A DNA stretch of 64,000 nucleotides from Desulfuromonadales bacterium (GTDB lineage Bacteria; Desulfobacterota; Desulfuromonadia; Geobacterales; Pseudopelobacteraceae), in contig JAENWA010000007.1 in assembly GCA_016650295.1 (NCBI GenBank), forward strand, positions 1 through 64,000, in the 5' to 3' direction. Numbering within the stretch: position 1 is the stretch's first letter; each line of letters starts with the position of its first letter. Under the pieces are notes generated by a model that saw only the letters and a program-made list of their open reading frames with translations, made no database searches and had not been told where the DNA came from. The position numbers and the translations under genes are program-made. Of the stretch, positions 8,817 to 41,222 are shown in pieces.

Positions 8817-8882
8817 GACGCCGGACTCTAAAAGACTATTCGAGGCGATGTTGAAGAAGCATGGGGTTGGAGTATGCTGAGA

Positions 8883-9290
8883 TCAGGCAGCCTTCTTAAG
8901 AGACAGTTCTTCAAGAAGTTCCGGGTGACGGTCGAGAAGGCGCAGCAGGGTGTCAGCCGCCTTGCCGGGGTGGGTTATGCCCCGTTCATACTGGGAAAAG
9001 GCTCGGATGCCTCCGCCAAGCAGTTCTCCGGCCTGTTTCTGGGTCAGTTTCAGGCGTTTGCGGATGCGCTTGATTTCCACCGGCGGCAATGGTTCGGCGT
9101 CAACCTGGGCGCGAAAGGCTTTAACCGTCTCCAGATAGCGTCCGGTTTCGCTTGCGGTAAAGATGCCATCACCGCAGATGGTGCAGTATTCGCCCGGCAT
9201 GGCGATACGTATGCTCTTGCCGAGATATTCGCAGGTTTCTTCCCGAACTTCCGAAACAAGGATTCCTTTGCCGCACAAGGGGCATTTCAT
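8883..9290 (-). CDS. mqsA: MqsA-family antitoxin
   Basis: A 135-residue protein. The N-terminal half has two CxxC zinc motifs (MKCPLC, residues 3 and 6; CTIC, residues 36 and 39). The C-terminal half is a helix-turn-helix of the MqsA/Xre type (RIRKRLKLTQKQAGELLGGG, then IRAFSQYERG). MqsA binds MqsR and represses the pair's promoter. The start at 9290 has AGGAG nine bases upstream. It follows mqsR by four bases, the toxin-first order usual for mqsRA. Neighbouring genes are relics or defence functions. Confidence 0.88.
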   Translation of the reverse strand: MKCPLCGKGILVSEVREETCEYLGKSIRIAMPGEYCTICGDGIFTASETGRYLETVKAFRAQVDAEPLPPVEIKRIRKRLKLTQKQAGELLGGGIRAFSQYERGITHPGKAADTLLRLLDRHPELLEELSLKKAA

Positions 9291-9294
9291 GGCT

Positions 9295-9600
9295 CTATCT
9301 CCTTTTGAACGATACAATCAGCAGGTTGCGTTCCGGTATGATGGTAAGTTTCAGATACAGGGGCGTTCCCCGGAACACAGGGCGGTACACATCCTGCCAG
9401 CTTGTATGATCGGCGTAACTTGTCATGCTTTTGTAGAAATCGCCCATAGTAAGAGCGGTCAAAACGGAAAACATGTCATCAACAGTCATACCCAATGCTG
9501 CTGCTCCCTGGCGGGCTATTGTCGTGAAAACAACGGATTCCATGGTGGACGCCAGCCGGATGATCTCTTGCAGCGGGAAATGTGGTCGCAGTTTTTCCAT
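9295..9600 (-). CDS. mqsR: MqsR-family mRNA interferase toxin
   Basis: A 101-residue protein starting MEKLRPHFPLQEIIRLA. It contains DFYKSMTSYADHTSWQDVYR and PLYLKLTI, and ends LLIVSFKRR, closely following E. coli MqsR, including the Lys, Gln, Tyr and Lys positions reported as functional there. MqsR is a ribosome-independent RNase that cuts at GC-rich triplets. I choose the ATG at 9600 from the length and alignment; an upstream start at 9648 would add 16 atypical residues. No strong ribosome site is visible, which is common for toxins translated at low level. Confidence 0.87.
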   Translation of the reverse strand: MEKLRPHFPLQEIIRLASTMESVVFTTIARQGAAALGMTVDDMFSVLTALTMGDFYKSMTSYADHTSWQDVYRPVFRGTPLYLKLTIIPERNLLIVSFKRR

Positions 9601-28358: not shown

Positions 28359-28859
28359 ATGCTGTCGTTTCTGGATCTCTTTGCATCGTTGAATAAGCAC
28401 GGTGTTCAGTACCTTGTTGCAGGAGGATGGGCGGTCAATTTATACGGTGTCGAGCGGGCTACCGGCGATCTTGATCTTGTAGTTTTTCTGGAACAGCACA
28501 ACCTTGAAAGGTTCATTGAGGTTGTTCGCCAGTTCGGATTCAAGCCGAAGGCACCGGTTACCTTGGAAGATTTTGCTCTTGAGGAGAAACGCCGCGAGTG
28601 GATAGAAGAAAAGGGGATGATGGTATTCAGTTTTTTTGACCCACAGAATCCTTTCGTGCTTCTGGATGTGTTTATCGACAATCCGTTTGATTTTGAGAAG
28701 GTATATGTTAATCGGTCAATGATTTCCGCTGGCCGGGCTGAGATTCCGGTTGTGCCGCTGTCAACGTTGATCGAAATGAAGGAAAAGGCGGGAAGACCGC
28801 AGGATCTGGCTGATCTCTATTATCTTAAAGAAATGCAGGGAGAGCAGAACAATGGCTAA
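28359..28859 (+). CDS. nucleotidyltransferase-fold protein (AbiEii/MNT-like)
   Basis: A 166-residue protein with YLVAGGWAVNLYGVERATGD followed by LDLVV, the GG-x-A...R-x-T-x-D-L-D-L pattern of minimal nucleotidyltransferases, and a C-terminal KAGRPQDLADLYYLKEM helix seen in AbiEii-like proteins. Such proteins often form two-gene toxin-antitoxin or NTase-HEPN pairs. It lies four bases after argF and overlaps the next small gene by eight bases, so it is probably co-expressed with argF. It interrupts the arg series before argG. Confidence 0.8.
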   Translation: MLSFLDLFASLNKHGVQYLVAGGWAVNLYGVERATGDLDLVVFLEQHNLERFIEVVRQFGFKPKAPVTLEDFALEEKRREWIEEKGMMVFSFFDPQNPFVLLDVFIDNPFDFEKVYVNRSMISAGRAEIPVVPLSTLIEMKEKAGRPQDLADLYYLKEMQGEQNNG

Positions 28860-29058: not shown

Positions 29059-30282
29059 ATGTCAAAAAAACAGGAAATCAAAAAAATCGTTCTGGCCTAT
29101 TCCGGCGGCCTGGACACATCCATTATCCTCAAATGGCTCAAGAATGAGTATGGCTGCCAGGTGGTGGCCTTTTCGGCCGACCTGGGGCAGGGGGACGAAC
29201 TGGACCCGATCCGTGAGAAGGCCCTGGCCACCGGCGCCGACAAGGTCTACATCGACGACCTGAAGGAAGAGTTCGTGCGGGACTTCGTCTTCCCCATGTT
29301 CCGTGCCAATGCCATCTACGAGGGGCACTACCTGCTGGGCACCTCCATCGCCCGCCCGCTGATCGCCAAGCGTCAGATGGAAATCGCCGCGCTGGAAGGA
29401 TGCGACGCCGTCTCCCATGGCGCCACCGGCAAGGGCAATGACCAGGTTCGTTTTGAGCTGGCCTACTATCACTTCGACCCTTCCATCAAGGTTGTCGCTC
29501 CCTGGCGCGAATGGGATCTTAACAGCCGTCAGGCCTTGATCGAGTACGCTCAGAAAAACGACATCCCGATTCCGACAATTCAGAAGCGTCCCTGGTCATC
29601 AGACCGCAACCTGCTGCATATCTCCTTCGAGGGAGGCATTCTTGAGGATACTTGGGCCGAGGCGCCGGAAGAGATGTACGTCCTGACGGAAGCGCCGGAG
29701 AATGCGCCTGACAAGCCGCAGTACGTGGAGATCGAGTTCAAAAACGGCAATGCCGTGGCGGTGGATGGAGAAGAAATGTCCCCGGCCCTGCTGCTGGCGC
29801 ATCTCAACTATATTGGCGGCCAGCACGGCATCGGCCGGGTGGATCTGCTGGAAAACCGTTCGGTCGGCATGAAGTCGCGCGGTGTCTACGAGACCCCCGG
29901 TGGCACGATCCTGCGCGAAGCCCATTCGGCTGTCGAGCAGATCACCATGGACCGCGAGGTCATGCGTATCCGTGATAGCCTTATTCCCGAGTACGCCAAG
30001 CAGATCTACGCCGGTTACTGGTTCTCCCCCGAGCGCCTGATGCTGCAGACCCTGATCGACGACTCGCAGAAATGCGTCAACGGCGTGGCCCGCCTCAAGC
30101 TCTACAAGGGACACTGCCGCACTGTAGGCCGCAAGTCAGAGAGCGATTCGCTCTTCAACCTGGATTTCGCCACCTTCGAAAAGGACCAGGTTTTCAATCA
30201 GGCCGATGCCGAGGGCTTCATCAAGATCAACAGCCTCAGGCTGCGGATCAGAGCGCTGATGCAGGCCAACCGGAAGAAGTAG
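29059..30282 (+). CDS. argG: argininosuccinate synthase
   Basis: A 407-residue enzyme with the ATP pyrophosphatase P-loop [28 protein letters not shown], and FSPERLMLQ. It joins citrulline and aspartate using ATP. AAGGAGAATCGAC before the ATG is a good ribosome site. A terminator follows after about 30 bp, and argH is displaced 9.5 kb downstream by the defence island. Confidence 0.97.
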
Positions 30283-30311: not shown

Positions 30312-30340
30312 GGGAGCGGCAGCGATGCCGCTCTTTTTGT
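30312..30340 (+). terminator. terminator after argG
   Basis: An 8-bp stem GAGCGGCA/TGCCGCTC with a four-base loop followed by TTTTTGTTT. It separates argG from the defence operon. Confidence 0.9.
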
Positions 30341-30404: not shown

Positions 30405-33400
30405 ATGCCGCGTATTTTCGACAATATCTCGCAACAGCTTCTTCCAGCGCTTCGGGCCACTCTTGAAACGGCAAGTCACGCCGATTTTTGCGTTGGTTAC
30501 TTCAACCTGAGGGGCTGGCAGTCGCTGGACGACCTTATTGAAGCCTGGGACCCCAGCCAAGGGCAGATGTGTCGGGTTTTGATCGGGATGCAGCGTCCTC
30601 CTCACGAAGAGGTGCGGGAGCTGTATCAAATCCGGACCGAAGAAAACGACACTATTCTCGACAATGCGCGTGCCTCGCAACTGAGGTTGCGCTTTGCCCA
30701 ACATCTTCGCGAACAGATTACCTTCGGCATACCGACAGCGCGGGATGAGGCCGGATTGCGCCAGTTGGCTAAACGGCTACGGGCCGGACAACTGGTGGTA
30801 AAACTCTTTCTCCCCTATCCGTTACACGCCAAGCTCTATTTGCTGTTCCGCCAGGACGCGAACAACCCGGTCACCGGATTTGTCGGCAGCAGCAACCTCA
30901 CACTTTCCGGACTTTCTCGGCAGGGCGAACTCAATGTCGATGTTCTCGACCACGACGCCACCGGGAAGCTCTCCGGTTGGTTCAGCGACCGCTGGAACGA
31001 GCGCTGGTGCATTGATGTATCAGCGGACCTGGCCGAAGTCATCGAAACCAGTTGGGCGCGCGAGGCAGTTGTCCCGCCGTATCTGATCTACCTGAATATG
31101 GCCTTCCACCTCAGCGTGGAGGCGCGGGCCGGTTTGAGTCAGTTCCGACTGCCAGCACGTTTTGAGGAGGAGCTTTTCGAGTTTCAGAAAAACGCTGTCA
31201 AAATAGCCGCCCGCCATCTAAACCGTCGCGGCGGCGTGCTGATCGGTGACGTAGTCGGTTTGGGCAAAACCATCATGGCCACGGCCCTGGCCCGCATGGT
31301 GGAGGACGATCTCAACTACGAAACGCTCATCATCTGCCCGAAGAACCTCGTGCCCATGTGGGAGGCCTATCGCAAGGAATATGGTCTGCGCGGCATGGTC
31401 ATGTCTCTCACCCAGGTCAACCACCCCTCCAAGGGGTTGAAGGATCTCAAGCGTTATCGGTTGGTGCTGATCGACGAAAGCCACAACCTGCGAAATCGTG
31501 AGGGTAAGCGTTACAAGGCAATTGCCGATTACATTCGCCAGTGGGAGTCGCGCGTTATCCTGCTGACCGCGACCCCTTACAATAAATCGCTCACCGACCT
31601 GTCCGGCCAATTGCGCCTGTTCATCGAAGAGAAGGCCAATCTCGGTATTCGGCCCGAGCATTTCATGCGTAAGAAGGGACTGAGCGATGCCCAGTTCGAG
31701 CGCCAGTTCCAGTGCCCGACGCACTCTATTCAGGCCATGGAGAAGAGTGATGAACTGGACGACTGGCGAGAATTGATCCGGCTCTACATGGTGCGCCGCA
31801 CACGCAGCTTCATCATTGCCAACCACGCTGTCTGCGATGAAAAGGGGCGTTGCTACATTACCGACAGCCACGGAGAAAAGCGCTATTTCCCGATACGCAA
31901 GCCCCTGACGTTACAATTTCCCATCGACGAAAGCGACCCGAGCGATCAATACGCCCGGCTCTACTCCGAGCAGGTAGTCGAAGTGATCAGCTCCCTGCAC
32001 CTCTCCCGCTACGGCCTCGGCAGTTATGCCGATCCAATCGCGATCAAGACCGCGACCGCTGCCGAACGCAAGCAGATGGACGATCTGGGTAAAGCCGGCG
32101 CACGGCTCATAGGCTTCTGCCGCACCAATCTCTTCAAGCGGCTGGAGTCAAGCGGCTTCTCCTTCCTGCAGTCGCTGGAGCGACATATCCTGCGCAACGA
32201 GATTTATCTTCACGCCATCGACAACGGTCTCGATCTCCCCATCGGGACGCTCGATGCTGGTCTGTTGGATGCCCAAAGTGTGGATGAAGACGCTGACGGG
32301 TTCATCAGTAGTCAAGAAGACCTGTTTGACGGCATCATAGAGGAGTCCGAAGAACAACCGGCCAGTCAGGCTGCAACGGTCTATCGGCAATATGCGGGCG
32401 AATATCGCAAGCGCTTCAAGTGGATCAGCCCGAGGTTGTTCAAGAAAACTCTTCGCGAACATCTTGCTGCTGACGTTGCCGAATTGCGTTACCTGCTTGA
32501 TCTGCGCGGCTCCTGGCAGCCGTCCAACGACCGCAAGCTTGAGCATTTGCGCGACCTGCTCAAACGGACGCACACCAAGGACAAGGTACTGGTCTTCACC
32601 CAGTTTGCCGACACCGCGCGCTACTTGGGCCGCGAACTGCGCCGCGACGGGATACAGCAGCTCGCCGTCGTTACCGGTGCCACTCCCGACCCTTACGCCG
32701 TGGCCTGCCGCTTCTCGCCACATTCCAACAAGGCGTCAATCCCAAAGGCCGAGGAACTGCGTGTGCTTATCTGCACCGATGTGCTCTCCGAAGGCCAGAA
32801 CCTTCAGGATTGTGCCGTGGTGGTGAACTTCGACCTCCCTTGGGCCATCATCCGCCTTATCCAGCGGGCTGGTCGCGTAGATCGCATCGGGCAACAGGCC
32901 GAAGAAATCCGTTGCTACTCCTTCCTGCCCGCCGACGGCGTTGAGCGCCTCATTAGGCTTCGTGCCCGCATCACCCAGCGGTTGCGCGAAAACGCCGAGG
33001 TTGTCGGTACCGACGAGGCGTTTTTCGAAGACGAAGACATGGCCGCCCTCCGCAGCCTCTCCACCGAACATACCGGTGCTCTCGATGATAGTGATGACGA
33101 AGTCGATCTTGCCTCATACGCCTGGCAGATCTGGAAAAATGCTACCCAGGACAACCCGGCGCTGGCCCGTGAAGTAGAGGCCCTGCCGCCAGTTATCTAT
33201 TCTGCCAAGCACTTTACCCCACAATCCGCACGCTTTCCTCTACTGCCGGAAACTGCCTTCCGGGGCGGAGTGCTGGTCTATGTGAAATCACCGGAAGGCA
33301 ACGATCATCTGGCCTGGGTTGATCCGCAAGGGGAAGCGGTCACGGAATCGCAATTCACTATCCTGCGGGCCGCCGAGTGTGGGCCGGATGAGCAGGCGCA

Positions 33401-33788
33401 ACCCCGTGCGGAAAATCATCACGAGATGGTCGCTGTCGGTCTCAAGCTTGCCGTGGCGCAGGATAAAGCGGTTGGCGGCGGTCTTGGTCGTCCTTCCAGC
33501 CCGCGTCGGCGCTGTTACGACCGGCTCAAGGAATACAGTCGCTCGCTTAAATCGACCCTGTTCAACGATGATGAACTGGATCGCGCCCTGGACGATATCT
33601 ACACCCATCCGCTGCTCGAAACCGCCGCCGACACCCTTAATCGCCTTATGCGCGGCGGCGTCAATGACGTGCAGCTTGCCGAGGCGGTCAAGTCCCTGCG
33701 TGAAGAGGGGCAACTGACCTACACCAAAGAAGAGAATGCCCAGCGTGAGCCCAAGGTGGTTTGCTCGCTGGGTCTGAATACGGAGTGA
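30405..33788 (+). CDS. PLD-type nuclease/SNF2 helicase fusion (defence)
   Basis: A 1127-residue protein. Residues about 1-200 form a phospholipase D-like nuclease domain with one clear motif, HAKLYLLF...GSSNLT (His141, Lys143). A superfamily 2 helicase follows: Walker A GDVVGLGKT (from 281), DESH (357-360), TATPYNKS, and in the second RecA domain VLVFTQFADTARYLG, TDVLSEGQNLQ and QRAGRVDRIGQ. The last 250 residues are not recognised. Such fusions occur in restriction-like and BREX/DISARM-type defence loci as DNA translocase-nucleases. It begins a four-gene operon, 38 bp before the methylase. The upstream DNA is AT-rich and could hold the promoter. Confidence 0.88.
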   Translation: MPRIFDNISQQLLPALRATLETASHADFCVGYFNLRGWQSLDDLIEAWDPSQGQMCRVLIGMQRPPHEEVRELYQIRTEENDTILDNARASQLRLRFAQHLREQITFGIPTARDEAGLRQLAKRLRAGQLVVKLFLPYPLHAKLYLLFRQDANNPVTGFVGSSNLTLSGLSRQGELNVDVLDHDATGKLSGWFSDRWNERWCIDVSADLAEVIETSWAREAVVPPYLIYLNMAFHLSVEARAGLSQFRLPARFEEELFEFQKNAVKIAARHLNRRGGVLIGDVVGLGKTIMATALARMVEDDLNYETLIICPKNLVPMWEAYRKEYGLRGMVMSLTQVNHPSKGLKDLKRYRLVLIDESHNLRNREGKRYKAIADYIRQWESRVILLTATPYNKSLTDLSGQLRLFIEEKANLGIRPEHFMRKKGLSDAQFERQFQCPTHSIQAMEKSDELDDWRELIRLYMVRRTRSFIIANHAVCDEKGRCYITDSHGEKRYFPIRKPLTLQFPIDESDPSDQYARLYSEQVVEVISSLHLSRYGLGSYADPIAIKTATAAERKQMDDLGKAGARLIGFCRTNLFKRLESSGFSFLQSLERHILRNEIYLHAIDNGLDLPIGTLDAGLLDAQSVDEDADGFISSQEDLFDGIIEESEEQPASQAATVYRQYAGEYRKRFKWISPRLFKKTLREHLAADVAELRYLLDLRGSWQPSNDRKLEHLRDLLKRTHTKDKVLVFTQFADTARYLGRELRRDGIQQLAVVTGATPDPYAVACRFSPHSNKASIPKAEELRVLICTDVLSEGQNLQDCAVVVNFDLPWAIIRLIQRAGRVDRIGQQAEEIRCYSFLPADGVERLIRLRARITQRLRENAEVVGTDEAFFEDEDMAALRSLSTEHTGALDDSDDEVDLASYAWQIWKNATQDNPALAREVEALPPVIYSAKHFTPQSARFPLLPETAFRGGVLVYVKSPEGNDHLAWVDPQGEAVTESQFTILRAAECGPDEQAQPRAENHHEMVAVGLKLAVAQDKAVGGGLGRPSSPRRRCYDRLKEYSRSLKSTLFNDDELDRALDDIYTHPLLETAADTLNRLMRGGVNDVQLAEAVKSLREEGQLTYTKEENAQREPKVVCSLGLNTE

Positions 33789-33826
33789 CAGCGTGAACGG
33801 AATTACCCTGCAAACGAAAGCTAACC

Positions 33827-36800
33827 ATGTCTAGTTTTAACTTTGAGCGATTCAGCACCCATCTGAGCCATTTTGATTTCAATGCGTTGTTCATTGATGT
33901 TCTTGGGTGGAGCCACCCCCCCGTGTCCGAACGCAATTGGTATGGCGACGAGTACAAGGGGATCACGTTTCAGCGCCGAATGGTGGCCGAACTGTCCGGC
34001 GTGGCGGTGTTGGAGATTGCCTGCGACAGCGGCTGGCCAGATGAAAATACGCGCATGACTTTGTGGCGCCATCTTTCTCAATCCCATTACGAAAACCTGC
34101 TGATTTTTCTCGACCGAACAGAAGCCCCTTCGCAGAGCCTGTGGTATTGGGTTAAACGTGTCAAGGACGCAGATACCGGAAAACTGAAGTCCATCGCTCG
34201 ACGTCACGAGTATTTTCGCGGTCAACCGGCAGATCTCTTCGCTTCCAAACTCAAATCCATGGTGGTCGAACTATCCGAACTGGACGAACGCGGACGCATT
34301 TCTGTTATGGATGTCGTACGGCGTATGGAAACTGCGCTGGATGTGGAAAAAACCACCAAGCGTTTCTACTCGGGATATAAGGAACAGCATGAACAGCTCC
34401 TTCTGCAAATTGAGGGGATCAATAACGAGCACGACCGCCGCTGGTACGCCTCGGTCATCCTCAACCGGTTGATGTTCGTCTGGTTTCTGCAGAAGAAATT
34501 TTTTCTGGACAACAAGGACGAGCACTACCTGCTCAACAAAATGCGGGAGAGTCGGCAACGCGGTTCCGACCGATTTTACGGAGAATTTCTCAACGCCCTG
34601 TTCTTCGATGCCTTTGCAATACCTGAGAGGGAGCGTTCGCCAGAGGTGAAGGCCCTTACCGGAACGATCCCATACCTGAATGGCGGTCTGTTTCTGCACC
34701 ACAAGCTGGAAGAGGATGAGGCGGGACAACCCCGTGTCGGCATCACCCTGCGAATCCCGGATGCGGCCTTTGACGGGATCTTCAAGCTGTTCGGAGATTT
34801 TTCGTGGCATTTGGACGATACCCCGGCAGGCAATGCCGACGAACTGAACCCGGATGTGCTTGGCTACATCTTCGAGAAATACATCAACCAGAAGGCATTC
34901 GGCGCCTATTACACCCGGCCTGAGATCACCGGCTATCTGGCGGAGCGGAGTATTCACCGGCTCATCCTGGAGCGAGTACACGAAGAGGCCGTCCCCGCGC
35001 TCGGCTGGCCCGCCGTGGCTTTTCCCACAGTGGCGGACATGCTGGCTCGCATGGATGCGCGGGTAGCATTGCGGCTAGTGAACGAGGTACTTCCTTCACT
35101 CACCATCCTTGACCCGGCGGTCGGTTCGGGAGCCTTTCTGGTGGCGGCACTCAAGGTGCTGATCAACATCTATTATGCCATTGTCGGGCGTGCAGAGTTG
35201 GGAGCCAGCGCGGAACTGGCAAACTGGCTCAAGGCTATCCAGAAAGACCACCCAAGCGTGGGGTATTACATTAAGCGCAAGATCGTAACCGACAACCTCT
35301 ACGGTGTGGACATCATGGAAGAGGCAACGGAAATTGCCAAGCTGCGCCTATTTCTCGCCATGGTTTCCTCTGTGCGGAAGATCGAGGAACTGGAGCCGCT
35401 TCCCAACATCGACTTCAATATCCTGGCGGGTAACTCTCTTATCGGCCTGGTCCATGTTGATCCGGCAAAATTCGATGCGATTACCGCCACGCCGACAAGC
35501 GGCTACTCAACCAAAAAACAGGATCGTGGCATGGTTGCGGAAGCGCCGGCTCTGGACTTTGGTTCGTTCAGTATCACTGAGCGCAAGGATTTGACCAAGG
35601 AGTATCGGAACCAGCGTACTGCAGAAACATTCAGTCACCTGCTGGCAGAAAAGAATCGTCTGATCGACCTCTATCGCCACACCGCTGGCTATGCTGAAGA
35701 CCTCCGGACTATGCGAGACACCATAGATGAGAAGAAGAAAGAGGCAATTGGGACACTCAACAAGATTCTGCTGGAAGATTTCAATGCACTGGGGATCAAG
35801 TACGAGGAAGCCACTTGGGATATCGCAATAAACAAGGAAGGGAAGCCGACGAAGCGTGCCCTGAAGCTACAGGATATCGAGGCGCTGCAGCCGTTTCACT
35901 GGGGTTATGAGTTTGACGATATTCTCAATAAACGGGGCGGTTTTGACGCCATCATCACCAATCCGCCGTGGGAGATTTTCAAGCCCAACGCCAAAGAGTT
36001 TTTTCAGGATCATTCCGAGCTGGTCACCAAGAACAAGATGACTATCAAGGAGTTCGAGAAGGAACAGGCCAAGCTGATGAAAGATACCGACATCCGCGCT
36101 GCCTGGATCGAGTATCAGAGCCGCTTTCCCCATGTCAGTCAGTTTTTCCGGGGTTCCAGCCAGTATAAGAACCAGATTTCGGTAGTCAACGGCAAGAAAG
36201 CCGGTTCCGATATCAACCTCTACAAGCTCTTCACCGAGCAGTGTTTCAACCTGCTGCGAAACGACGGTGAATGCGGCATCGTTATCCCCGGTGGTATCTA
36301 CAGCGACCTTGGAACCAAACAATTACGGGAAATGTTGTTTGCCGAAACGGAAATAACCGGGCTGTTCTGCTTTGAAAACAACAAGGAGATTTTTGAGGGG
36401 GTGCATCGCAGCTTTAAATTTGTGGTGCTGACATTTGTAAAAGGCGGCCGAACTGAAACTTTCCCGACCGCCTTCATGCGGCATGAGGTGGCTGAGCTGG
36501 AGCGGTTTCCGAAAGAGGGTGCGTTACAGTTAACTGTAGAATTAATACGTAAACTTTCACCAGACTCTTTGTCACTTATGGAATTCAAAACAGGTACTGA
36601 TGCTCATATTGCGGAGAAGTTCCTCAAGTATCCATTATTGGGTGAAAAAGCCTCTGATTCCTGGAATATGGATCTGTACAATGAATTTCATATGACGAAT
36701 GACAGCAAGGTGTTCAATATTGAAATAAAGCCCAACAGACGCATGCTTTATGAAGGGAAGATGATTCACCAGTTTACTCATGTTTTAGCGGAGCCACGTT

Positions 36801-37420
36801 ATTGGGTAGACGAAAAAGCTGGCAGAAAAGCTATCTTGAAGCGTATCGAAGATTCGGATCAGAAACTTGATTATCAAACCTATCGTCTGGCATTCCGGGA
36901 CATAGCCAGAAATACTGATGCTAGGACTATGATAGCCACTATTCTGCCAAAGAACGTATTTGTAGGGAACACGTTGTATCTGTCACACTCTTTGCCATGT
37001 AAGGAATTATTTGTTGTTACAGCCTTGCTGAACAGTTTCCCGTGTGATTTTATGATTCGTCAAAAAGTCAACGCACACTGCAGCATGTTTTATGTCTACC
37101 AACTCCCCGTCCCGCGCCTGACTGAAAAAGACCCCACCTTCAGCCCCATTGTCGAACGTGCCGCCCGCCTGATCTGCACCACTCCGGAATTTGACGACCT
37201 GGCCAAAGAGGCCGGTATCGGCAGCCATGAGCAGGGGACGACCAACGAAGTCGAACGGGGACGCCTGCGGGCTGAGCTGGACGGACTTGTGGCTCATCTC
37301 TATGGGTTGACAGAAGAAGAATTTGCTTACATCCTGACGACCTTCCCCTTGGTGGCTGACCCGGTTAAAATCGCCGCCCAGAACGCCTATCGCGATGTGA
37401 AGAGAGGAATGATTAAATGA
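33827..37420 (+). CDS. Eco57I-like DNA methylase/restriction protein
   Basis: A 1197-residue protein with SAM motif I ILDPAVGSGAFLVAAL (Asp429), a long insertion, and catalytic motif IV NPPW (residues 712-715) in AIITNPPWEIFK, as in gamma-class N6-adenine methylases of the type IIG/PglX kind. The C-terminal 350 residues, including NAHCSMFYVYQLPVPRLTE, look like a TaqI/Eco57I-type target recognition domain. I cannot point to a convincing PD-(D/E)XK nuclease in the N-terminal 200 residues. The gene overlaps the following ATPase gene by four bases (ATGA). Confidence 0.88.
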   Translation: MSSFNFERFSTHLSHFDFNALFIDVLGWSHPPVSERNWYGDEYKGITFQRRMVAELSGVAVLEIACDSGWPDENTRMTLWRHLSQSHYENLLIFLDRTEAPSQSLWYWVKRVKDADTGKLKSIARRHEYFRGQPADLFASKLKSMVVELSELDERGRISVMDVVRRMETALDVEKTTKRFYSGYKEQHEQLLLQIEGINNEHDRRWYASVILNRLMFVWFLQKKFFLDNKDEHYLLNKMRESRQRGSDRFYGEFLNALFFDAFAIPERERSPEVKALTGTIPYLNGGLFLHHKLEEDEAGQPRVGITLRIPDAAFDGIFKLFGDFSWHLDDTPAGNADELNPDVLGYIFEKYINQKAFGAYYTRPEITGYLAERSIHRLILERVHEEAVPALGWPAVAFPTVADMLARMDARVALRLVNEVLPSLTILDPAVGSGAFLVAALKVLINIYYAIVGRAELGASAELANWLKAIQKDHPSVGYYIKRKIVTDNLYGVDIMEEATEIAKLRLFLAMVSSVRKIEELEPLPNIDFNILAGNSLIGLVHVDPAKFDAITATPTSGYSTKKQDRGMVAEAPALDFGSFSITERKDLTKEYRNQRTAETFSHLLAEKNRLIDLYRHTAGYAEDLRTMRDTIDEKKKEAIGTLNKILLEDFNALGIKYEEATWDIAINKEGKPTKRALKLQDIEALQPFHWGYEFDDILNKRGGFDAIITNPPWEIFKPNAKEFFQDHSELVTKNKMTIKEFEKEQAKLMKDTDIRAAWIEYQSRFPHVSQFFRGSSQYKNQISVVNGKKAGSDINLYKLFTEQCFNLLRNDGECGIVIPGGIYSDLGTKQLREMLFAETEITGLFCFENNKEIFEGVHRSFKFVVLTFVKGGRTETFPTAFMRHEVAELERFPKEGALQLTVELIRKLSPDSLSLMEFKTGTDAHIAEKFLKYPLLGEKASDSWNMDLYNEFHMTNDSKVFNIEIKPNRRMLYEGKMIHQFTHVLAEPRYWVDEKAGRKAILKRIEDSDQKLDYQTYRLAFRDIARNTDARTMIATILPKNVFVGNTLYLSHSLPCKELFVVTALLNSFPCDFMIRQKVNAHCSMFYVYQLPVPRLTEKDPTFSPIVERAARLICTTPEFDDLAKEAGIGSHEQGTTNEVERGRLRAELDGLVAHLYGLTEEEFAYILTTFPLVADPVKIAAQNAYRDVKRGMIK

Positions 37421-38556
37421 AACTTCAATCTATGCGAACCAGGAACTTCAAGGCCATCGTAGACAGCCGCATGGTGCGGTTGGGTGCTTTGACCGCGTTT
37501 GTAGGCCACAACGGCAGCGGGAAATCAAGTCTGGTTGAAGCGCTTTCGACCTATCAGGCGGTGGTGCGCGACGGCTTGGACATCGCCATGCAGCGCTGGA
37601 TGGGGATCGAACATGTGCGCCACAAGGCAGCCGAGGCCAAGGTACGGCTTGGCAAACCGGTCAATCCGATCACCTTCGAACTGGTTATCGGCCCGTCACC
37701 CCGAGGCGCTTCCCGAGTGGAGATGGAAGTCAACAACGACTCGGCAGCTAATACAATGTTTATTAGTGATGAACGGGTAACCTACCCTGATAAGACTATC
37801 GATTCACGATACCCGATCGGCGTATCTAATATCTTGAAGCCCTTTGTATATGGCAATGGACGTTCCTTCCTGACCGCACCTATGCCACGTGGCTCCGAGC
37901 TGACCGCGCATATCCTGGGATGGCAATTCCTGACCATGCAGCCCGAGGTCATGGGGCGGCCGGCACCGCAGCAGCGCACAGAAGGACGCATTCGGCTGAA
38001 CAGCGACGGCTCCAACATCGCTGACTACCTCCTCGATATCCGGCGGATCGACAAGAACGCCTTCGACGGCATTGTGGAAACCATGGCCTATGTGCTCCCC
38101 TATGCCCGCGATCTGCAACCCTCTGTAACCTCGGAGCTGGAGCGTAAGGCATATCTGCAGATGACTGAAGCCGACTTCAAGGTGCCGGGCTGGATGCTTT
38201 CCACAGGAACGCTGCGCATGCTGGCGCTTCTGGCCTTGCTGCGCCATCCCAATCCGCCACCGCTCATCGTTGTGGAGGAGATCGAAAACGGCCTTGATCC
38301 GCGCAGCATCCACTTAATCGTTGAGGAAATTCGCAGTGTTGTTCTGTCCGGAGTGACACAGGTCATCCTGACCACTCATTCGCCCTATCTGCTCGACCTT
38401 TTGACGCTGGAACATCTGGTGCTGGTGGAGCGTGACGCCAAAGGCCAGCCACGATTCATCCGACCCGCAGACAACGCCGGTCTGCAAAAGTGGGCGCGCG
38501 ATTTTGCTCCCGGAAAGCTCTATACCATGGGCAGCCTATCGGGAGGTAATCCATGA
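37417..38556 (+). CDS. SMC/RecF-type AAA ATPase (defence)
   Basis: A 379-residue ATPase of the AAA_21/OLD class: Walker A GHNGSGKSS at residues 30-38, signature LSTGTLRMLALLALL, Walker B LIVVEEIENGLDP and a switch His in TTHSPYLLD. It has no fused Toprim domain; a separate DUF4276-like gene follows with an ATGA overlap. In PARIS and Gabija/OLD-type systems such ATPases sense phage factors and release or activate a Toprim nuclease partner. Here the partner might be the next gene, or the methylase before it. Confidence 0.87.
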   Translation: MKLQSMRTRNFKAIVDSRMVRLGALTAFVGHNGSGKSSLVEALSTYQAVVRDGLDIAMQRWMGIEHVRHKAAEAKVRLGKPVNPITFELVIGPSPRGASRVEMEVNNDSAANTMFISDERVTYPDKTIDSRYPIGVSNILKPFVYGNGRSFLTAPMPRGSELTAHILGWQFLTMQPEVMGRPAPQQRTEGRIRLNSDGSNIADYLLDIRRIDKNAFDGIVETMAYVLPYARDLQPSVTSELERKAYLQMTEADFKVPGWMLSTGTLRMLALLALLRHPNPPPLIVVEEIENGLDPRSIHLIVEEIRSVVLSGVTQVILTTHSPYLLDLLTLEHLVLVERDAKGQPRFIRPADNAGLQKWARDFAPGKLYTMGSLSGGNP

Positions 38557-39155
38557 AGATCGGCTTTGTTTTCGAGTGTGGTCCTCAGGGAGCGGACAAG
38601 CAGGTGTGTGAGTATCTGGCGGGAAAGCTAGTACCGGAGGCCTCTTTTGTGTCACGTACTCTCGACAACAAGGCTAACCTGCTTTCGCAGGCCGCAACGG
38701 TTGCAGCAGCCCTGCTAGACGACGGCTGTGAGCGGGTTCTTATTATTTGGGATTTGCGTCCGGCGTGGCCTGACATGGCACATAAACCCTGCCGACATAT
38801 CGAACGGGTAGCCTTGCAGGATGCGTTGGAAAAGACCGGCCTGGAGGGAGCTGCCCCTGTTTTTCTGGTCTGCATCGAACAGGAACTGGAAAGCTGGATT
38901 CTGGCAGATGATGACAATCTATCCCGATTCCTTTCGACCGATGCACACGCCTACCCGGTCAAGCGGATTCGTCATCCTGACCGTGAAAAACAACCAAAAG
39001 CGCTGTTGATAGGCCATTTCAAACAGGCTCGTGGTTGGCGATATGACGATAAGGTTCATGCGGTGAAAGTCTTGTCCACAAGCGAACCGAATTGGAACCG
39101 ACTACGACGCTCCCTGTCGTTCGTACGTTTCGAAACCAAAATACTTGGGGAGTGA
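38553..39155 (+). CDS. DUF4276-like (Toprim-related) protein
   Basis: A 200-residue protein. It starts MKIGFVFECGPQGADKQVCE, with an acidic Glu where Toprim-like DUF4276 proteins have EG-x-T-E. VLIIWDLRPAWPD follows, and later CIEQELESWILADDDNL matches the family's EIE-x-W-(L)-AD segment. DUF4276 proteins usually accompany a RecF/SMC-type ATPase, as here. Nuclease activity is inferred from related Toprim partners. A hairpin terminator follows the stop. Confidence 0.72.
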   Translation: MKIGFVFECGPQGADKQVCEYLAGKLVPEASFVSRTLDNKANLLSQAATVAAALLDDGCERVLIIWDLRPAWPDMAHKPCRHIERVALQDALEKTGLEGAAPVFLVCIEQELESWILADDDNLSRFLSTDAHAYPVKRIRHPDREKQPKALLIGHFKQARGWRYDDKVHAVKVLSTSEPNWNRLRRSLSFVRFETKILGE

Positions 39156-39197
39156 AAAGTCGCTTACATCCATACAGTCCCAGGCGACTTTATTATT
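39156..39197 (+). terminator. terminator of the defence operon
   Basis: AAAGTCGC (39156-39163) pairs with GCGACTTT (39184-39191), followed by ATTATTTG. It starts right after the stop codon. The loop of 20 bases is large, so confidence is moderate. Confidence 0.6.
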
Positions 39198-39316
39198 TGT
39201 CACGTCGGATAATAAACTTTAAAATTACAAATAACTCAAAACAATCAATATGATAAAAGATCGGTTATTATCTTTTTGGTCTCTGGGGGGGTGAGCGAGG
39301 TGTCGGAAACGCATCC

Positions 39317-39757
39317 TTGCTCGTCCCGCATCTGACCGTTTTCTTGGCCTCCCGCCAATGTCCGGGGGTGGCAATCCGTGCAGCCATGAACTGGGCAGTC
39401 GAACAGGCGCGCAGCAAAAGCCCGGTCATCAGCGGTTTTCACTCACCACTGGAACAGTCGGTGCTGGAGGTAATGCTCACGGCGGGTGCGCCGTGTGTAA
39501 TTGTCATAGCACGGAAACTTGAACCTGCTCATCTTCCGCCAGGCTGGTTGTTGGCTGTGCAGAACGGGACGACGGCGGTTATCAGCATGGATGACACAAC
39601 ACGACGCCTGACAGCCGAGCTTGCCGCACGACGCAACGATTGGGTTGCGGAACATGCCGCCAGGATTGTGGTTGCGCATGCATCCGCCGGAGGAAATCTG
39701 TTGCGGCAGGCCATGCAATGGGAGAACAAAGGATGTTGTGTTGATTACCTCTTGTAA
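39317..39757 (+). CDS. DprA/SLOG-like nucleotide-binding protein
   Basis: A 146-residue Rossmann-like protein: LTVFLASRQCPGVAIRAAMN, then VISGFHSPLEQSVLEVML, ends APCVIVIARKL. This resembles the core of DprA/Smf and SLOG nucleotide sensors, without the flanking SAM and winged-helix domains of DprA. No ATG fits; the frame is open from about 39257 and the TTG at 39317 is the first usable start, with GAGGTG about 14 bases upstream. It lies after the defence terminator and before argH. The role may be defence signalling; this is inferred. Confidence 0.65.
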   Translation: MLVPHLTVFLASRQCPGVAIRAAMNWAVEQARSKSPVISGFHSPLEQSVLEVMLTAGAPCVIVIARKLEPAHLPPGWLLAVQNGTTAVISMDDTTRRLTAELAARRNDWVAEHAARIVVAHASAGGNLLRQAMQWENKGCCVDYLL

Positions 39758-39845: not shown

Positions 39846-41222
39846 ATGTCCAAAGACAAGCTCTGGGGCGGCCGCTTTACCCAGCCGACCGATAAATTCG
39901 TTGAGGAGTTTACCGCCTCGATCCAGTTCGACAAACGCCTGTATCACCAGGATATTCGCGGTTCCATCGCCCATGCCCGCATGCTGGGCAAGCAGGGGAT
40001 CATCCCGCTGGAGGATGTGGAAAAGATCGTCCACGGGCTGCAGGCCATTCTGGGGCAGATTGAGGCCGGCGATTTTGATTTCTCCATCTCTCTGGAAGAT
40101 ATCCATATGAACATCGAAGCGCGCCTTTCGGCCGCCATCGGTGAGGCCGGCAAGCGGCTGCACACCGGTCGTTCACGTAACGATCAGGTGGCGCTGGATA
40201 TCCGTCTTTACCTGCGGGACGAGATCGTGGAGATCAGTACCTATCTGGATCTGCTGATTGATGCCCTGCTGGACCAGGCCGAGGCCAACATCCACGTCAT
40301 CATGCCCGGTTTCACCCACCTGCAGACCGCCCAGCCGATCCTGTTCTCCCATCACATGATGGCCTATGTGGAGATGTTCAAGCGGGACAAGGCGCGGCTG
40401 GAGGATTGTCTGAAGCGGGTCGATGTGCTGCCGCTGGGGGCCGGAGCCCTGGCCGGGACGACCTTCCCCATCGACCGTGAGTACGTGGCCGAACAGCTGG
40501 ATTTCCCGGCCATCACTCGCAACTCGCTGGATGCGGTCTCGGACCGCGACTTTGCCCTGGAGTTCCTGTCCGATGCCGCGATCCTGATGATGCACCTGTC
40601 GCGCTTTTCCGAGGAGCTGATACTCTGGTCCACCAGCTCGTTCCAGTTTATCGAGCTGTCGGATGGTTTCTGCACCGGTTCTTCGATCATGCCGCAGAAG
40701 AAGAACCCGGATGTCCCGGAGCTGGTGCGGGGCAAGACCGGACGGGTCTACGGCAACCTGATGGCGCTCCTGACGACCATGAAGTCCCTGCCGCTGGCTT
40801 ACAACAAGGATATGCAGGAGGACAAGGAACCGCTCTTCGACACCATCGACACGGTCAAGGGGAGCCTGAAGATCTTTGCCGATATGATCCGCGAGATGCG
40901 GGTCAACGAGCCCTCCATGCGTCGGGCGGCCGGTCTCGGATTCTCCACTGCCACCGATGTGGCCGATTACCTGGTGCGCAAGGGACTGCCCTTCCGGGAT
41001 GCCCATGAGGCGGTCGGCAAGGCGGTGGCCTACTGTGTTGAGAAGCGGAAGGATATCCCCGAACTCTCTCTGGCGGAGTGGCAGCATTTCTCCCCGATCA
41101 TCGGGGATGATATCTTCGATTGCATAACGGTTGAGGCCAGTGTGAATGCTCGGTCCATGACGGGTGGTACGGCACGGTCCTCGGTCGAAACCGAGATACT
41201 GAGAGTGCGAGAGGGTAAGTAG
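39846..41222 (+). CDS. argH: argininosuccinate lyase
   Basis: A 458-residue fumarase-superfamily lyase starting [21 protein letters not shown]. It shows [27 protein letters not shown] (with the catalytic His) and the signature [11 protein letters not shown]. It releases arginine and fumarate. AAGGAAC lies upstream. It belongs with argG but is separated from it by the defence island. Confidence 0.98.

Follow-up and report, generated by a model that had tools for sequence, protein, structure and literature searches.

In type-2 BREX-Related (BR) systems, a methylase marks self DNA and an HKD-motor protein cuts DNA that is unmarked; OLD-ABC/nuclease modules are recruited beside BREX-related restriction–modification (RM) operons and have been proposed as backup effectors (PMC12839542). 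In PARIS, AriA and AriB answer the anti-restriction protein Ocr and cleave tRNA (PMC12409363). Here, we analyzed a four-gene operon in a window of 64,000 nucleotides from a Desulfuromonadales bacterium (assembly GCA_016650295.1, contig JAENWA010000007.1, positions 1 to 64,000). According to the open reading frame (ORF) calls on the window, the four ORFs are co-directional at 30405–39155 on the plus strand between argG and argH. We refer to the helicase, methylase, ABC ATPase and DUF4276 protein as HEL, MT, ATP and D4276, and to ATP-D4276 as the cassette.

30405..33788, + strand: HEL, HKD/PLD nuclease fused to an SNF2 helicase (PLDc_2, SNF2, Helicase_C), 1127 aa
30471..30995, + strand: single N-terminal PLDc_2/NgoFVII-like nuclease domain of HEL, residues 23–197 (PF13091 7.7e-8, PF09565 7.4e-6)
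33827..37420, + strand: MT, Eco57I/type IIG-like N6-adenine methyltransferase, S-adenosylmethionine motif and NPPW intact, 1197 aa
37417..38556, + strand: ATP, OLD-like ABC ATPase without a nuclease domain of its own (AAA_21/AAA_15), 379 aa
38553..39155, + strand: D4276, DUF4276 protein, predicted alpha/beta fold with conserved acids near strand ends, 200 aa

We consider it rather probable that this is an RM-like anti-phage operon in which a HEL–MT core carries an exchangeable backup effector cassette, for which we infer all enzymatic activities, the trigger and the D4276 target. An earlier note on this DNA had described a modification–restriction module joined to an ATPase–effector module, and as a matter of genomic fact this junction is seen. 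Its ORF coordinates, the plus strand, a HEL–MT gap of 38 bp and ATGA overlaps at the MT/ATP and ATP/D4276 junctions are exactly as claimed there.

Type-2 BR/Hma-like DUF499 systems (PMC12839542, PMC8565338) likewise pair an N6-adenine methyltransferase with a SWI2/SNF2 helicase that has an N-terminal HKD effector, and they recruit auxiliary OLD-ABC/nuclease modules, as is the case here. Type-2 BR, however, is defined by a DUF499 ATPase together with DUF3780, whereas our operon is without DUF499 and its methylase is type IIG-like. DUF499 (PF04465) was not found in the whole genome, while the control matched; DUF3780 had no match in the genome, nor in any control genome, and all four locus genes were assigned to other families. 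Membership in BREX or DISARM, which the earlier note had brought up, must be given up. BREX PglZ (PF08665) was not found in the genome, with controls matched, and the same holds for DISARM DrmB (PF09369, MZB/DUF1998), for which 8 controls matched. Class 1 DISARM (DrmD, DrmMI, DrmABC) does contain an SNF2 helicase and an adenine methylase of related families as well as a PLD nuclease, DrmC; but the DrmD score was only 143.4 bits against an equivalog cut-off of 610, and the HKD domain is here fused to the helicase.

Other systems share parts of the layout. MADS combines a methylase, a related AAA ATPase and a DUF4276-like protein (MAD2, MAD3, MAD4) as seen here, but all scores fell far short of the equivalog cut-offs (MAD3 122.9 vs 420 bits, MAD4 16.8 vs 160 bits), none of the other MAD genes adjoins, and the operon has an HKD-SNF2 helicase instead. 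PARIS (AriA-AriB), Septu (PtuA-PtuB) and RloA-RloB pair an ABC ATPase with a small effector as the cassette does; in contrast, the effector here is a DUF4276 protein, not DUF4435 or HNH, and it is embedded in an RM-like operon. PbeABCD/CxC-ABC (PMC10853773) combines an SF2 helicase that bears a fused HKD nuclease with an ABC ATPase and an optional methylase, yet its helicase differs (weak PADLOC PbeA match, 1.6e-9), its ATPase is of the CxC zinc-hook type and its partner is DndE-like.

None of the four proteins reached an NCBIfam equivalog cut-off. The best matches in the PADLOC library were to uncharacterized candidate models, i.e., C3a139 'HKD+Snf2' for HEL (5e-46), HEC-01A for ATP (1e-44) and HEC-01B for D4276 (2e-8). 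ATP also matched MADS3 (2e-35). Both HEC-01 genes are thus present, adjoining with a 4-bp overlap and matching their models. As far as testable, PADLOC lists no system with the four genes joined in this order. The view of the earlier note that the combination is not a named system hence holds in that no named defence system fits; all component classes, however, are known or listed as candidates, and the modular principle, recruitment of OLD-ABC modules, is published (PMC12839542). Similarly, its gene identities stand for the PLD/SNF2, Eco57I and DUF4276 proteins, but RecF/SMC was a loose label for ATP, which by its sequence matches is better called a HEC-01A/MAD3-like ATPase than RecF proper. 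The window D4276 itself remains just below the Pfam DUF4276 cut-off (28.2 vs 30.2 bits), while all 18 orthologues match the family and the NCBI annotation of the Anabaena orthologue is DUF4276.

The enzymatic motifs of the core are well kept. Among 73 HEL homologues, H141, K143, N164, E175, GLGKT (285–289), DESHN (357–361), TP (390–391) and QRxGR (820–824, motif VI) were conserved in at least 95%, as were the catalytic motifs DPxxGSGAF and NPP in homologues of MT. The top PADLOC match of MT was REase_MTase_IIG (7e-105, in three stretches), and the type IIG methylase architecture is present. In contrast to type IIG RM enzymes, MT lacks a nuclease domain in its own polypeptide: in the homologue alignment, the conserved acidic set of a PD-(D/E)XK nuclease is absent from residues 1–200, and WxK at 108–110 probably occupies the place of D/E-x-K. 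A nuclease hidden in the MT N-terminus was rejected, as the acids are missing and an AlphaFold2 (AF2) model of residues 1–400 (predicted template modelling (TM) score 0.51) gave meaningless Foldseek matches (TM about 0.1). Since the first 200 MT residues hold no acidic nuclease set, we would place the cutting in HEL. MT would methylate adenine at the target and so mark host DNA; being without an intact nuclease, it probably also gives target recognition, and HEL, an SNF2 motor with one HKD domain, is probably the restriction subunit against unmarked DNA. The missing nuclease site would also suit a modification locus that has degenerated or stands as an orphan, with an epigenetic regulatory, non-defence role. 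We regard this as very improbable, given that none of the HKD, motor, ATPase and MT motifs is disrupted and all are conserved, and that the context is mobile (plasmids) and includes a defence hotspot.

MT was used as the query against about 85,000 species genomes; this returned 333 relatives, from which we took the 80 best loci. HEL was present in 70 of the 80: in 64 it immediately precedes MT on the same strand, at a distance of up to 2.2 kb, and in six it lies further away or in another order; in the 10 loci without HEL, MT lies no more than 2.1 kb from a contig edge. HEL and MT together form the invariant core, and every relative for which the sequence suffices has both. ATP was found after MT in 19 of the 80 loci. 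In 16 of them its start is at most 30 bp from MT, including nine 4-bp overlaps; the three outliers have a split MT (L079), two ATPase genes of which the first is beside MT (L114) and a 565-bp gap (L128). D4276 accompanies ATP in 17 of the 19 loci, and the other two run into the contig end. In L114 (9605–12988), the DUF4276 gene is flanked by the two ATPase genes 3' of the methylase. A separate locus, L044 (G132, 8823–9437, minus strand), shows an apparent deletion scar, in which helicase codons 1–43 adjoin the last 139 methylase codons and the middle is gone.

Loci with ATP occur in Pseudomonadota, Myxococcota, Armatimonadota, Verrucomicrobiota, Nitrospirota, Bacteroidota and Acidobacteria and, in addition, on Cyanobacteriota plasmids. 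Plasmid pANACY.05 of Anabaena cylindrica PCC 7122 is annotated as helicase, DNA methyltransferase, ATP-binding protein and DUF4276 protein, and a plasmid of Calothrix NIES-4101 has the HEL-MT-ATP-D4276 order too. Altogether, this order is found in about 20 bacteria of at least eight phyla with recurring 4-bp overlaps, and because it recurs in about 20 other genomes, it does not reflect chance. The four genes are a conserved unit in many unrelated genomes, which the earlier note had named as support for its view, and the 19 of 80 loci and the plasmids rule out that their linkage is confined to this genome. As a four-gene system the proposal needs amendment: the unit recurs, but it consists of a two-gene core with an optional cassette, and other effectors are found at the same positions.

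Mapped on the HEL tree, ATP presence requires 13 changes, at least 10 of which are forced by well-supported branches; the cassette has been repeatedly gained or lost at one position. In this tree, the helicases closest to the window HEL are beta/gammaproteobacterial, which fits a horizontal acquisition of the operon. Related helicases lie beside a methylase that is only partly similar in sequence on Synechocystis PCC 6803 pSYSX (L186) and Pelobacter propionicus pPRO1 (L189), both model organisms suited to work on the core; on pSYSX, a VapC-family toxin gene separates helicase and methylase.

Searches starting from ATP gave a consistent picture. In the phylum sample, 2 of 395 genomes matched, the window genome and G385, both with ATP beside an HKD-SNF2 helicase and a methylase; both plasmid matches were linked to such an operon, the Pseudomonadota sample returned only the genome on which it was centred, and no relatives were found in phages and IMG/VR viral contigs. 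It follows that the ATP subfamily is rare and, in every case seen, tied to the HKD-SNF2 helicase and methylase operon type. This bears on the possibility that an RM-like system and an independent, toxin-type ATPase–DUF4276 pair are merely clustered as neighbours in a defence island. Cassette and core histories do differ in part: how similar other ATP proteins are to the window ATP does not track HEL identity, with identities to the window of 71% for HEL and 40% for ATP in L064 and of 58% and 73% in L128. Still, we consider such a chance neighbourhood quite improbable, as position and order are fixed, start and stop overlap in at least nine loci and the ATP-first searches never met the cassette away from its operon type.

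Alternatively, all four proteins could form one integrated complex, in which ATP and D4276 regulate or assist the HKD-helicase in analogy to MAD3/MAD4 in MADS or DUF499 in Hma/BR, with no independent backup. The 4-bp overlaps suggest coupled expression, ATP and D4276 resemble MADS3 and MADS4, and ATP identity tracks MT identity (Spearman 0.64, 0/2000). In G385 (L185, C17, 7729–16648, minus strand), moreover, the cassette stands behind a HEL that is only 28% identical, and the distant MT closely resembles the window MT over no more than its final 51 residues (67%). This shared tail may be a docking tail or else a recombination junction. As a strict marker of the cassette the MT C-terminal tail was ruled out, since it is also present in several cassette-less loci. 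An obligate complex is difficult to reconcile with the core loci without the pair, about three quarters of the total, with the at least 10 cassette gains or losses and with an autonomous named module, Septu, in the same slot. We hence judge it rather unlikely, although less so than unrelated neighbours.

The RM-like core with a backup cassette assigns ATP and D4276 to a second layer. The ATP Walker A/B motifs, the S262-x-G264 signature and H321 (H-loop) are kept across homologues, and intact nucleotide-binding motifs with a separate small partner gene correspond to the PARIS-like module layout. By analogy to PARIS, we infer that the cassette is an ATPase-gated effector: ATP would hold the small DUF4276 protein, which is probably a nuclease of the TOPRIM/RloB type, and free or activate it once the first layer fails or is inhibited, whereupon the infected cell would shut down. 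That the effector acts upon blocked restriction, as the earlier note supposed, would be a PARIS-like mechanism and may apply here. The AF2 model of D4276 with 18 orthologues is confident (predicted local distance difference test 92.5) and has strands at 2–7, 31–36, 61–67 and 103–108; from this and the orthologue alignment, the invariant acids E8, D67, E111 and E113 lie near strand ends. In the model, acid positions and strand order fit a TOPRIM-like placement. The closest viral fold was an RloB-like protein (E 1.1e-3, TM 0.49), and a profile search of D4276 against the PDB gave nothing. RloA and RloB are restriction-linked ORFs of Campylobacter that follow the logic of an ATPase and its partner. 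We treat a nuclease role of D4276 as likely.

Several observations weigh against this two-layer scheme. For MT and HEL, the assignment to RM is drawn from their domain families. In D4276, the second Asp of the TOPRIM DxD motif is not conserved. Foldseek of the model against the PDB gave no match below E 1e-3, and an attempt to identify D4276 as TOPRIM by a profile comparison with the OLD-like protein of L051 yielded no alignment; on both these grounds its nuclease activity stays putative. Finally, most relatives lack the cassette, which is thus dispensable for the function of the core.

Where the cassette is lacking, other genes may take up its place. The slot 3' of MT holds Septu PtuA and PtuB (L115), an OLD-like 588-aa protein (L051), an NsnB-like ATPase (L058), YhcG PD-(D/E)XK proteins (L060, L123) or RhuM (L069), and the HEL-to-MT interval holds Schlafen AlbA_2 (six loci), KilA-N/PDC-S22 (L062), SoFic-like Fic (L073), DUF3800 (L066, L110) or YhcG (L076, L111), with some assignments based on one sequence-cluster representative and others on the own sequence. 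This pattern is that of a core with exchangeable effectors. A Schlafen AlbA_2 domain is fused to the C-terminus of the MT homologue in 14 loci (L067, L069, L071, L076, L078, L093, L096, L104, L107, L111, L115, L116, L117 and L123). Such fusions were seen in 0 of 19 cassette loci vs 14 of 61 others; mutual exclusion of fusion and cassette is suggestive only, with p = 0.03 confounded by phylogeny.

We may tentatively go one step further, with less confidence than in the two-layer scheme as such, and suppose that an unnamed widespread core has a dedicated plug-in position 3' of MT that different fail-safe effectors can occupy (ATPase-DUF4276, PtuAB, OLD-like proteins or a Schlafen domain fused to MT), and that the cassette monitors core integrity. 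If so, a single core could be used for comparing many sensor–effector modules. The C3a139 and HEC-01/DUF4276 candidates become linked to one recurrent operon in at least eight phyla, and nature provides a series of the same core with ATP-D4276, with other effectors and with none; the guard hypothesis is therefore testable by swapping one gene pair. Genomically, core loci with and without the cassette support the backup-effector idea (PMC12839542) for a core without DUF499 and PglZ. Cultured carriers are Anabaena cylindrica PCC 7122, with the full operon, and Synechocystis PCC 6803, where the related helicase has its own methylase.

The operon is bounded by the following features:

29059..30282, + strand: argG, left insertion edge
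30312..30335, + strand: canonical terminator-like hairpin 3' of argG, 10 pairs, 6 GC, T-rich tail, parting the operon from argG
about 39158..39215, + strand: two adjacent terminator-like stem-loops 3' of the D4276 stop, minimum free energy −17.6 kcal/mol, z = −3.2
39846..41222, + strand: argH, right insertion edge

As the first hairpin closes argG and the stem-loops end the operon, the four genes probably form their own transcription unit. The earlier note had the group closed by a terminator-like hairpin. Two stem-loops are indeed present, and 0 of 200 shuffles equalled their minimum free energy; the first, however, is a weak intrinsic terminator because of its 16-nt loop and was not called by the terminator consensus scan. 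Upstream of the operon, no strong sigma-70 site stands out in the window scan, and an Rfam search found no RNA elements at the locus. The argG–argH gap is 18 bp in the congener G395 and about 90–210 bp in several further relatives. Since the two genes adjoin there, the unit is an insertion of about 9.5 kb.

In G396, this site is occupied by a type IV enzyme together with PD-Lambda-4, and in G405 by a type IIG enzyme, an LmuA-like protein and YhcG; in both genomes, argG and argH are on different contigs and each flank was read separately. Among relatives, the argG–argH site thus appears to be a defence hotspot. In G397 (L173), argH is preceded by very large ORFs (2354, 2061 and 1024 aa), none of which matched PADLOC at 1e-10. 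In the window, an AbiEii-like nucleotidyltransferase (PF08843, 3.6e-9) without an obvious partner is encoded between argF and argG (28359–28859, plus strand). Between the operon and argH, a 146-aa ORF with a TTG start (39317–39754, plus strand) matches PADLOC PsyrA (4.7e-11) over model positions 139–261 of 398 and is probably the remnant of a PsyrA/DprA-like gene.

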